Positions 9,830 through 15,613 of a stretch of DNA of 33,336 bases are shown here, one piece after another (position 1 is the first letter of the stretch; each line of letters starts with the position of its first letter). A model generated the notes under the pieces. It was not told where the DNA came from and made no database searches. It was given only the letters and a program-made list of their open reading frames with translations. The translations under genes and the position numbers were made by a program. Source of the stretch: Myxococcaceae bacterium (GTDB lineage Bacteria; Myxococcota; Myxococcia; Myxococcales; Myxococcaceae); assembly GCA_022842905.1 (NCBI GenBank), contig JALHOS010000033.1, forward strand, positions 1 through 33,336, given 5' to 3'.

Positions 9830-10372
9830 TCAGGCGACGGCGCCGAGTTCCGGGCCAGTTGGCTGCCAGTACAGCTGCTCCGGCGCAGGGGTCATGAGGC
9901 GCTCGGGTGGCACCCGCGGCGTCCACTGACCGTGACGCGGGAGTGCCGCCCCGAGCTTCTTGAGTGCCGCCTCGAGGGTCGACAGTGAGATCTCGATGAG
10001 CACCTGCGCAAGTCGACGCGGCTCGGCCACGTCGACCTCGTGGACTGCGCCGATCGCCGACACGTGCACGCTCGTCTTCAGGGACTCGTGGAACTCCCGC
10101 AGGACGGCGTCTGGGGTCGCATCGGCGCGGAGCCTCTGCATGGCTCCGTCGACGTGCCGCCGAATCATGTGGGGAACGTCAGCCAGCATCGCCGACGACA
10201 AAGGGTCGATTCCCATGCGCTTCGCGTCGACTCCCACGATGCCCGCGCTCCAGAGGCCCGCATCGTTCGAGGCCTTCCCCACGGCGAGCACTGCGATCGG
10301 TATGGAGACCGCGTTCGGGTCCGTCAGGTCGGGGCAGTAGCTGATTGTCGCCAATTGGTAGGAGAGCTTCAT
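9830..10372 (-). CDS. DUF3037-like partner of the HipA-like kinase
   Basis: A 180-residue protein starting MKLSYQLATISYCPDLTDPN, then AVSIPIAVLAV. This resembles the start of DUF3037 proteins (typically 'Y.VIRYVPD...GEFVNIGVVL'). A long helical portion follows (MLADVPHMIRRHVDGAMQRL) and ends in a Pro-rich tail. Its ATG overlaps the kinase stop codon (ATGA, 10369-10372), so its synthesis is coupled to the kinase. In other genomes DUF3037 genes often sit beside HipA-like kinases of the HipA_2 type, which supports the call, but similarity is weak by eye. It could act as an antitoxin-like or substrate partner; the role is unknown. Confidence 0.68.
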   Translation of the reverse strand: MKLSYQLATISYCPDLTDPNAVSIPIAVLAVGKASNDAGLWSAGIVGVDAKRMGIDPLSSAMLADVPHMIRRHVDGAMQRLRADATPDAVLREFHESLKTSVHVSAIGAVHEVDVAEPRRLAQVLIEISLSTLEAALKKLGAALPRHGQWTPRVPPERLMTPAPEQLYWQPTGPELGAVA

Positions 10373-11208
10373 GGGGCGCTTCTCAGGTAACGGCCCAGCG
10401 CGGGACGGACGAGCTGACGCCGCTCCAGAAGGCCTGTGACGATGACTTGTTTCTCGGCGTCCGGAAGCCACTGCCACGGAATACGGTTCACGACGTCCTC
10501 GATTTGACCCTCCGAGGTTGCTTCGATCCGCTGGACGGTCTCCTCGAGCACAGGTTCACTGAGGGTACTGCACATTCGTGCCGGAAAGGGTGCGGCCTGG
10601 CAGGCTCGGTAGCCCTCGTTGGCCCACCCACCGCTGACTCCGAGCGAGAACGCATAGTCGAGGAAGATGAACTCACCGGTCCGATAGTCGGACCCCTCGT
10701 AGCCGAAGACGATGTTGCTGGGGTGGTCGTGGTGGTCGGTCTGGTCCAACCATGTGTCGAAGGCGAATGCGCGCGCCGCTGGAGCCGACATCAGCGAGGC
10801 AAGTTCGCTGACGATCGGACTCTCGTTCTCGCCCAGGAAGTTCCTGATCTGGCTCCACGAAAACTGGTGCGGGTACAGCAAGAGCGAGACGCACACCCAG
10901 CGCTCGACGTCTGGCGCTTCATTCACCGCCAGGAGGACTGGGGGCACGGTGACGCCCAGATCGCCCGCGAGATCGGAGGCGATCTTCTCGCGCGCTGCGC
11001 GCCGCCAGCCGTGCCGTTTGTGCGGCTTGAGGTACGCCCTGCGGCCAGCGACCGCGTCCAGTTCGACGAAATAGCCTCCAGCTTCGCCTTTCCCCGCGAC
11101 GAGGAGGCCGCCCGCCTGGCTGGACGAACGACGCCAACGGCCGGGTAGTTCGACCCGCCTACGCCACGCCTCGGAGATCTCGCGATTGCGCTCCGCGATG
11201 GTGGTCAC
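10369..11208 (-). CDS. HipA-like (HipA_2-type) kinase-fold protein
   Basis: A 279-residue cytosolic protein. YLKPHKRHGW carries Lys61, a candidate ATP-binding lysine, followed by the helix AAREKIASDLAGDLGV and VPPVLL. A catalytic-loop-like segment reads FDTWLDQTDHHDHPSNI, with Asp158, Asp161-His162 and Asn165. FIFLDYAFSLG has Asp184 in the DFG-equivalent position. This is the layout of the HipA_2 family, shorter than classical HipA (about 440) and lacking its N-subdomain. Classical HipA phosphorylates GltX and causes persistence; whether this does is unknown. It is first of a two-gene unit with the DUF3037-like gene. The gene is somewhat less GC-biased than the adjacent OPT gene. Confidence 0.78.
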   Translation of the reverse strand: MTTIAERNREISEAWRRRVELPGRWRRSSSQAGGLLVAGKGEAGGYFVELDAVAGRRAYLKPHKRHGWRRAAREKIASDLAGDLGVTVPPVLLAVNEAPDVERWVCVSLLLYPHQFSWSQIRNFLGENESPIVSELASLMSAPAARAFAFDTWLDQTDHHDHPSNIVFGYEGSDYRTGEFIFLDYAFSLGVSGGWANEGYRACQAAPFPARMCSTLSEPVLEETVQRIEATSEGQIEDVVNRIPWQWLPDAEKQVIVTGLLERRQLVRPALGRYLRSAP

Positions 11209-13397: not shown

Positions 13398-13489
13398 CGC
13401 GCGGCGACGTTGTGCCCGCCCGGCGGAGGTGGCACATCGCGCCTGGTACCGTGGTCGGCGCGGAGGGGCATGGCTTGGTCGAAGCGAAC

Positions 13490-14476
13490 GTGAAGCCGAT
13501 CGTCGTCGTGTCGGGCGACGCAACGCGGGGCATCGCCAGGCGTATCGCGGCGCAGCTGCGGGCAAGGCGTCATGAGGTCGTCGTGGCGGCGCTGGACCGC
13601 ACTGGGAAGATCGAGCAGGTCGAACGAGCTGCCGCGCTCGTCTTCCTGTTCGCGAAGGCCGACGCGGCTCGAGCGCCGGCTCCCGTCGACGGCATTCGTT
13701 GCACGCTTCAGCGGGCCAGCGCCATGCGCATTCCGAGCTTGGTGCTCGTAGAGCCCGGCGGCAAGGCGGGCAGGCCCTGGTGGTTGGAGCTCGACGCCGG
13801 CGTCTGGGATGGCACCGTCGCTCGTGCGTGCGCGCACACGCTGAGCTTCCTCGACGCCGCACACCTCGAGGCCCGGCACCGGCTCACGCTCGACGGTCTC
13901 GTCGCGGCGCTCGACGCGGTGAGCGCCTTGCGTGACGTCGTTCAGGTGGCGCAGCTGTTGGCCGTGGAGGTGCGCCGTCGAAAGCGCACGGTAGCTGCGG
14001 CGCTTCAGACCTTGCTCAGCGTCATCGAAGCGCGGCGCTGGGAACTGCTGGGCATCGAGGGCGAGCGTTACACCGTGGTGGTTCACCGACTTCGTGCTGG
14101 GCGGCTGGTCCCCATCGCGCGGGTCGCGCACCCGTCCGTTCCATCCCGCGGACGGACCTGGCCGCTGGGTCAGAGTCATGTCGGCATCGCCGCGCAGCGG
14201 CGGCTCTTCATGGTGAGCCCCGACTTTCGGGACACCCAGGCGTGGGTCGCTGGCTCGCCGACGGATGCAGACGACCGGCGCAACTACGTTTCAGTCATGA
14301 CGATGCCGTTGCTCCTGAACACGCGACGGCGGCAGGCGGAGGTGGTGGGGACCCTGACGGTCAGCAGCGATCGCCGAGACCATTTCTCCGAGACGGACGA
14401 TCTCCAGGCGGTCGCTTTTACAGCCCTGGCGAGCTTGGCTACCATGCTGTTCGTCACTGGAGGACGCCGTGGCTGA
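13490..14476 (+). CDS. TIR-like-fold plus GAF-domain protein, first gene of a three-gene cassette
   Basis: A 328-residue protein if started at GTG 13490; the frame is open from GTG 13412. Residues 1-100 alternate beta strands and helices in TIR-like order: KPIVVVSGDATRGIARRIAA, HEVVVAALD, IEQVERAAALVFLFAKAD, ASAMRIPSLVLVEPG. The conserved TIR catalytic Glu is not evident, so it may be a non-enzymatic sensor or another Rossmann-like domain. Residues 125-180 are helical. The C-terminal region (LLGIEGERYTVVVHRLRAGR, then PLLLN and EVVGTLTVSSDRRDHFSETD) looks like a GAF domain, a small-molecule sensor. Its end overlaps the next gene by 8 bases. The fold call is inference from pattern; the GAF call is stronger than the TIR-like call. 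Confidence 0.68.
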   Translation: MKPIVVVSGDATRGIARRIAAQLRARRHEVVVAALDRTGKIEQVERAAALVFLFAKADAARAPAPVDGIRCTLQRASAMRIPSLVLVEPGGKAGRPWWLELDAGVWDGTVARACAHTLSFLDAAHLEARHRLTLDGLVAALDAVSALRDVVQVAQLLAVEVRRRKRTVAAALQTLLSVIEARRWELLGIEGERYTVVVHRLRAGRLVPIARVAHPSVPSRGRTWPLGQSHVGIAAQRRLFMVSPDFRDTQAWVAGSPTDADDRRNYVSVMTMPLLLNTRRRQAEVVGTLTVSSDRRDHFSETDDLQAVAFTALASLATMLFVTGGRRG

Positions 14477-14846
14477 CCCCCAACACGTTGCAGGTTTCGC
14501 CACCGACGACGACCCGCTCGCGGTCGCCAAGGGCCTCATTCAGTCGGGCAGGAGCCCCAAGGCTCGTGTTGGGCGCCGCTCCCTGAGCGTGGTTGCGCTG
14601 CGGCGTGTCGCGACGACGGCCGAAGAGGCCTCGAACACGCAGCGCGAGGCCGCGTATGCCGCGCTGCGCGTCGCGCTGGAGTCGGGTGATGCCCAGAAGA
14701 TCCACGTGAGACTCGCTGAGCTTCGTGAGCTGCAGTCCGCCGAGGCCGCTGCCTGGGAGCGCCGTGTCCGTCGTGTCGAGCGCTACGACGCCCAGGAGGG
14801 CGCCGCCGCGCGAGCGCGTGCCAAGGCCCTGCTCGAGGCCGACTGA
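14469..14846 (+). CDS. Small helical protein, middle gene of the cassette
   Basis: A 125-residue protein starting at GTG 14469, preceded by GGAGGA at 14459-14464. It overlaps the upstream gene by 8 bases and shares one base with the next start (TGATG), so all three genes are translationally coupled. The N-terminal about 45 residues are basic and flexible (GLIQSGRSPKARVGRRSLSV). The remainder is a long amphipathic, Glu/Arg/Ala-rich helix or coiled coil, for example DAQKIHVRLAELRELQSAEA. No enzymatic motif is present. It could be a linker, adaptor or DNA-binding subunit joining the sensor and the nuclease. I do not recognise a family. Confidence 0.75.
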   Translation: MADPQHVAGFATDDDPLAVAKGLIQSGRSPKARVGRRSLSVVALRRVATTAEEASNTQREAAYAALRVALESGDAQKIHVRLAELRELQSAEAAAWERRVRRVERYDAQEGAAARARAKALLEAD

Positions 14847-15613
14847 TGCGGCTGCTGCCTGCGCTGACGGCGCTCCCGACCGCGCCGTTGGCTCCCCGGC
14901 ACCAGCCCAGAGCCGCGGCCTACGCTCACTACCGGCAGTGCCTCCGCTGGGACTTCGGCTTCCATTGTGTGTTCTGCCTGCTTCACGAGCGGGACTTCAT
15001 GCCCACGGGTGGAGAGGGCTTTGCCGTCTTCTGGATAAAGCACCGAGAGCCTCAATCTCGTCAAGCGGCACTCAAGAACGCATACGACAACTGTTTGTGG
15101 GCGTGTCGACTCTGCAACCACGCCCGGGGCGCGACCGCGGTGAAGGACGGGGCTGGGCGGCGCCTGTTGGACCCGCGCACGGACGCCTGGGCTGCGCGCT
15201 TCGAGATCCAGGGGCACTCGCTGGAGGTGAAGGCCGCTGGCGACGGCGACGCGGAGTACACCCACCTCGCCTACGACCTGGCTGACGCGCGCAAGACGAC
15301 CATGCGACGTCGACGTGCCACCAGAGTGCCGCTCCTGATCCGCGCGGTGAGGCAGCACTTGGCTGACGAAGCGGCGCTGCTCGAGCGCGCGAAGTCCGTT
15401 CGTGGCGTCAAGCAGCGCGCCTGTGTGCTCGAAGCGGAGAACGCCCGGCGCCTGGCTGACTTTGCGCTGAGCGACCTTCAGGACTGCGCCGCCGTGCTCC
15501 CGGCGGACGCTGTCCCGTGCTCCTGCCGGCGGCACGGCGCGCTCCCCGCCTGGTTGGACACACAGCTCCGTGATGACGCCGCCGCGCTTGGTCATACCGG
15601 CCCTTCAGCCTGA
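14846..15613 (+). CDS. HNH endonuclease-like protein, last gene of the cassette
   Basis: A 255-residue protein with an HNH (McrA-like, zinc-supported) core at residues 41-95. It contains Cys41-x2-Cys44; IKHREPQS with His66 as candidate general base; NAYDNCLWACRLCNHARG with Asn82; and Cys87-x2-Cys90 followed by Asn-His. In most HNH enzymes the residue before the catalytic His is Asp or Glu; here it is Lys65. Flanking regions are unassigned. A C-terminal CSC pair may bind metal. The ATG shares one base with the preceding stop. It ends 35 bases before the glycerol kinase gene. DNA cleavage is the family activity; substrate and trigger are unknown. Confidence 0.78.
   Translation: MRLLPALTALPTAPLAPRHQPRAAAYAHYRQCLRWDFGFHCVFCLLHERDFMPTGGEGFAVFWIKHREPQSRQAALKNAYDNCLWACRLCNHARGATAVKDGAGRRLLDPRTDAWAARFEIQGHSLEVKAAGDGDAEYTHLAYDLADARKTTMRRRRATRVPLLIRAVRQHLADEAALLERAKSVRGVKQRACVLEAENARRLADFALSDLQDCAAVLPADAVPCSCRRHGALPAWLDTQLRDDAAALGHTGPSA

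Follow-up and report, generated by a model that had tools for sequence, protein, structure and literature searches.

The window analysed here, a stretch of 33,336 nucleotides from a Myxococcaceae bacterium (assembly GCA_022842905.1, contig JALHOS010000033.1), carries a cassette of three genes, all on the forward strand, at 13475 or 13490 to 14476, 14469 to 14846 and 14846 to 15613. The features of the cassette are as follows.

13462-13468, + strand: Shine-Dalgarno sequence of gene 1, GGAGGGG, preceding TTG 13475
13475-14476, + strand: gene 1, sensor protein; 333 aa from TTG 13475, 328 aa from GTG 13490
13490-13849, + strand: first ~120 residues of gene 1, with a beta-alpha-beta start and a possible Rossmann- or TIR-like fold; model pLDDT under 50
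13934-14452, + strand: GAF domain of gene 1 with the preceding helix, residues ~149-321; from homology to protein L016 and Foldseek
14459-14463, + strand: Shine-Dalgarno sequence of gene 2, GGAGG; strong, inside gene 1, five bases 5' of the gene 2 start
14469-14846, + strand: gene 2, small helical adaptor, 125 aa; 16.4 bits against a four-adaptor profile, best of 4,995 shuffles 10.1
14846-15613, + strand: gene 3, PtuB-type HNH nuclease, 255 aa; from the PADLOC PtuB profile and predicted fold
15038-15043, + strand: Lys65-His66; catalytic His kept, acidic residue before it replaced by Lys (AAG)
15089-15118, + strand: Asn82 to Asn91 with C87/C90, the remainder of the HNH motif; from alignment

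Genes 1 and 2 overlap by 8 nucleotides (TGA at 14474-14476, GTG start at 14469), and genes 2 and 3 share a single nucleotide (TGA at 14844-14846, ATG at 14846, read as TGATG), which bears out the three coupled, overlapping genes claimed in the original prediction. The reading frame of gene 1 opens at 13412, with better starts at 13475 and 13490; the TTG at 13475, which adds five residues, is more likely to be used than the GTG at 13490, because a Shine-Dalgarno sequence precedes it. Each of the three reading frames is intact and shows coding periodicity (GC2 0.52-0.54, GC3 0.80-0.81). Homologues of genes 2 and 3 stand in matching order at other loci, and one was also found for the C-terminal half of the gene 1 product; these are therefore real genes and not chance open reading frames.

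The PADLOC profile match, the predicted fold and the HNH motif of gene 3 identify it as a PtuB-type HNH nuclease. It matched the PADLOC PtuB models at 5.3e-8 and remained below the cut-off of the Pfam HNH family. The structure model, which was built on 14 sequences (mean pLDDT 87), matched eleven PtuB chains from Septu and retrons with Z scores of 8.3-12.1 over 136-173 aligned residues, while the top unrelated structure, a helical protein, reached Z 8.0. The earlier assignment of the last gene as an HNH nuclease was therefore right and can be narrowed to the PtuB type, and the His66 and Cys pairs (C41/C44 and C87/C90) that it singled out are in place. The catalytic His66 and Asn82 are kept 16 residues apart, the same spacing as that between His75 and Asn91 of the Septu EcB88 PtuB, which are both essential for defence (PMC13096335).

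Gene 1 encodes a GAF domain in its C-terminal half. This half is homologous to a DUF4062-GAF protein, L016, of genome G026 (6.5e-13; 0 of 1000 shuffles as good), and its model matched GAF structures in Foldseek (8e-6, probability 1.0), including free methionine-R-sulfoxide reductases and metabolite sensors; the Pfam GAF_2 match alone fell below the cut-off. Neither Pfam TIR nor any other profile matched the N-terminus, which also did not resemble the DUF4062 (TIR-like) region of L016, the sole relative, to a significant degree. As the analysis yielded no fold assignment for these 120 residues, the label TIR-like, which had been proposed together with GAF, is unproven, and such a fold is possible, while the GAF part of the proposal holds. 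In contrast to gene 1, L016 has a clear DUF4062 N-terminus, and unlike the cassette it has no coupled HNH or adaptor gene downstream. Direct searches with gene 1 among plasmids, phages, viral contigs and genome contigs returned no relatives, and no homologue of it adjoins an HNH gene in any collection searched.

Nucleases of the window type were found in four genomes from one class of Acidobacteriota (loci L104, L119, L121 and L122), and in all four an adaptor-like region lies directly upstream of the nuclease. This region is fused to an HTH protein in L104 and, in L122, to a kinase-like protein whose kinase domain is incomplete, and stands alone in L119 and L121. With a profile built from the four, the window adaptor reached 16.4 bits, above the maximum of 10.1 among 4,995 shuffles; in pairwise comparison it matched the L119 adaptor better than all 1000 shuffles, and its matches to those of L104, L121 and L122 were not significant. 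The HTH-fused adaptor of L104, taken by itself, gave no significant match. The profile comparison supports the placement of gene 2 in a real adaptor family, homologous to the four adaptors as a set, and the helical adaptor first suggested for gene 2 thus gains a family that recurs beside related nucleases, either alone or fused to different sensors. As for the co-occurring homologues whose search had been proposed, the pair of adaptor and nuclease recurs elsewhere, but gene 1 has no counterpart beside an HNH gene in the collections searched.

In the nuclease tree, the window nuclease and the complete ones of L104, L119 and L122 form one clade (support 100/99), and the four have in common a C-terminal CxC...LP..L..Q tail that is absent from the other aligned sequences. 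The L104 nuclease is 41-44% identical to that of the window. Within this clade the partner is different each time, namely the GAF protein in the window, an HTH-adaptor fusion in L104, a kinase-like-adaptor fusion in L122 and the adaptor alone in L119, and this is the strongest evidence of sensor exchange. The Acidobacteriota loci thus resemble the window in nuclease, adaptor homology and C-terminal tail, whereas the sensor is fused to the adaptor in L104 and L122 and is absent in L119. At L121 (also recorded as L125, G513:C12), a window-type adaptor is followed by an HNH frame that breaks after ~44 residues, showing that the module is sometimes lost.

The window nuclease differs from its relatives in the residue before the catalytic histidine, which is Lys65 here, Glu in L104, L119 and L122, and Glu or Asp in all 13 aligned relatives. 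In HNH enzymes, an acidic residue at this position normally helps to bind the metal. Since Lys65 replaces this residue, the window nuclease may be inactive or altered, or the base may have been misread in a fragmented assembly, and a one-base change from GAG to AAG is sufficient for the substitution. An alternative reading, which we consider rather unlikely, is that the cassette has the layout of a defence module and is decayed, its nuclease having been inactivated by this change from Glu to Lys, or that the base is a metagenome assembly error. The agreement of all 13 relatives against Lys65, the closely related L104 nuclease included, and the broken L121 frame, which shows that nuclease breakdown occurs in the group, both fit this reading; the three intact frames, the retained coding composition and the remaining motif residues, all of which are kept, argue against it.

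Related nucleases also occur in a wider family of cassettes. In five of five more distant Myxococcota relatives, the HNH gene is the third in an operon of TIGR04255, a small protein and HNH. A genome scan returned 43 loci, 24 of them with the full operon of TIGR04255, small helical protein and HNH (four of these places are the same as Myxococcota loci already found, and two lie in one Luteimonas genome), distributed over Myxococcota, Pseudomonadota, Spirochaetota and Planctomycetota. This operon with its PtuB-type HNH (L062, L064-L085) is widespread, and no system of that kind is present in PADLOC. No description of it and no mention of TIGR04255 were found in the open-access text and papers searched, TIGR04255 has no solved relative by sequence, and the adaptor profile of this group gave no informative match against PDB sequences. 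Assignment of the window adaptor to the TIGR04255 group was rejected by a leave-one-out profile test, in which it scored below most of its own shuffles, and no sequence homology between the two was detectable.

Around the TIGR04255 operons lie, among others, genes for type I restriction-modification, for a DruE-like helicase, for AbiEii and for integrases. At a cut-off of 1e-15, 154 PADLOC families were matched near these operons (119 proteins) versus 42 in random control regions (117 proteins), a comparison that is semi-quantitative, as the control was drawn from Myxococcota only and helicase-type matches inflate both figures. The matches in the control regions were fewer and also more generic.

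Other layouts of adaptor and HNH were encountered as well, such as an unknown gene of ~240 aa followed by adaptor and HNH in Acidobacteriota, and a caspase-TPR gene in the same position. L094, L114 and L115 (Pedobacter and others) hold one operon of a GHKL ATPase, a receiver-like protein with an adaptor-like C-terminus and an HNH protein. In L120, a CHAT protease (193-2028) that carries the adaptor as a C-terminal fusion precedes the HNH gene, while in L116 (3389-5119) a DAHP synthase reading frame ends in an adaptor domain directly before the HNH gene, as if the domain had been joined in frame to a housekeeping gene. Against the adaptor profile of the wider family, the CHAT fusion, L113, L116 and one receiver-like protein scored above all shuffles.

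Among known systems, Septu (the ABC ATPase PtuA and the HNH protein PtuB) shares the PtuB fold and motif with gene 3; as a further similarity, PtuA genes in Myxococcaceae immediately precede their HNH gene. Neither gene 1 nor gene 2 matched an ATPase in Pfam, NCBIfam or PADLOC, and the cassette is not Septu because it is without PtuA; its sensor is a GAF protein and its adaptor a separate gene. Some PtuA C-termini in Myxococcaceae weakly resemble the adaptor (5 of 13 exceeded all shuffles, with low scores), and an equivalence of the two is at most suggested by this. In the nuclease tree, the PtuA-linked group does not include the window nuclease, though support for this is weak (75/76). The PtuB chains of type I-A retrons (Ec78/Eco7 and Ec83) are the best structural matches of gene 3 (Z up to 12.1), but the cassette has no PtuA ATPase and no reverse transcriptase was found among the neighbouring genes scanned; it is not a type I-A retron. 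Nor is it a TIGR04255 operon, which resembles it in gene order, coupling, sizes and a related HNH, but differs in an unrelated first gene (gene 1 gave no match to TIGR04255) and in an adaptor that is not detectably homologous. The original view that no system could be named is a fair one, since the cassette shares its effector, but not its sensor, with Septu and type I-A retrons. No published description of it was found in the open-access text searched, and the most fitting name is that of a PtuB-type nuclease cassette whose sensor has been exchanged.

According to previous studies, PtuAB of retron-Eco7 and Septu EcB88 depletes or cuts tRNA-Tyr in abortive infection, and DNA cleavage was reported for another Septu (PMC11555353, PMC13096335). 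We think it probable that the cassette is a defence module that puts a PtuB-type nuclease under the control of an exchangeable sensor by way of an adaptor, with an anti-phage and probably abortive action. Gene 1 would use its GAF domain to sense a signal, gene 2 would be a small helical docking protein, and together they would hold the nuclease ready; upon infection, a change in the state of the sensor would, via the adaptor, free or orient the nuclease, which would cut tRNA or DNA as the PtuB proteins of Septu and retrons do and thereby stop phage production. The adaptor and nuclease would then form a reusable output taking different sensors. The docking of gene 3 by gene 2 is suggested by fusion and adjacency, and the putative defence role draws on just the known role of PtuB and the neighbours of the TIGR04255-type relatives. 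The modular reading is favoured by the adaptor-sensor fusions in relatives (HTH, kinase-like and CHAT), while Lys65, the lack of an HNH-adjacent homologue of gene 1, the window and TIGR04255 adaptors not being detectably homologous and the lack of a clear defence island count against the defence reading.

Less probably, with about a one-fifth chance, the cassette might be a signalling or stress operon unrelated to phages, in which the GAF domain responds to a metabolite or to redox state and the nuclease serves as a toxin under regulation, much like that of a toxin-antitoxin module. The methionine-R-sulfoxide reductases and metabolite sensors among the GAF fold matches are consistent with such a role, as are the HTH or kinase-like partners that the relatives carry beside a sigma-factor gene; however, known PtuB proteins act in phage defence, defence and mobile genes lie near the TIGR04255 relatives, and the distribution is sporadic. 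HNH proteins are common in mobile elements, but a homing-type HNH element inserted downstream of an unrelated GAF gene, which would make the apparent operon accidental, is very improbable given the PtuB fold across most of the length of gene 3, the adaptor conserved upstream of the nuclease and the fact that no gene 3 relatives were found in phage or viral collections.

A broader form of the defence-module reading, which we put forward tentatively and at somewhat less than an even chance, is that the PtuB-type HNH is a general-purpose immune effector linked to many sensors by a stand-alone or fused docking module, with Septu and retrons as two versions. The sensors counted in this tentative form are GAF, TIGR04255, HTH, kinase-like, CHAT, caspase-like, GHKL/receiver and ABC ATPase. 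The PtuB proteins of Septu and retrons are under active study, and their known versions are tied to an ATPase. If true, a nuclease and adaptor that are kept while the sensor is swapped would reveal the way in which bacterial immune systems are put together and would provide a natural set of sensor swaps for the study of PtuB activation; the work also points to the widespread TIGR04255-adaptor-HNH operon.

The cassette looks acquired, because its GC3 lies below that of the flanking core genes (OPT transporter 0.93, glycerol kinase 0.95, FmdB 0.89) and a window-type nuclease is present in only 1 of 195 genomes of the phylum. The local gene order is not conserved, since FmdB is not adjacent to OPT in the relatives' loci read. 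No clear defence island surrounds the cassette in the window, where a HipA-like gene is the only such neighbour. This gene (10369-11208; PADLOC PDC-M03A 2.8e-5, weak Pfam HipA_2) is followed by a 215-aa gene of unknown family, both on the reverse strand (9830-11208 for the pair), and with a GC3 of 0.78-0.79, like that of the cassette, the two may together be a further acquired module, which lies 2 kb from the cassette. Finally, the same genome contains a separate ATPase-HNH pair (G000:C150, L060 3460-5360), which looks like an ordinary Septu, its upstream gene carrying the Walker A motif GQNGAGKST.
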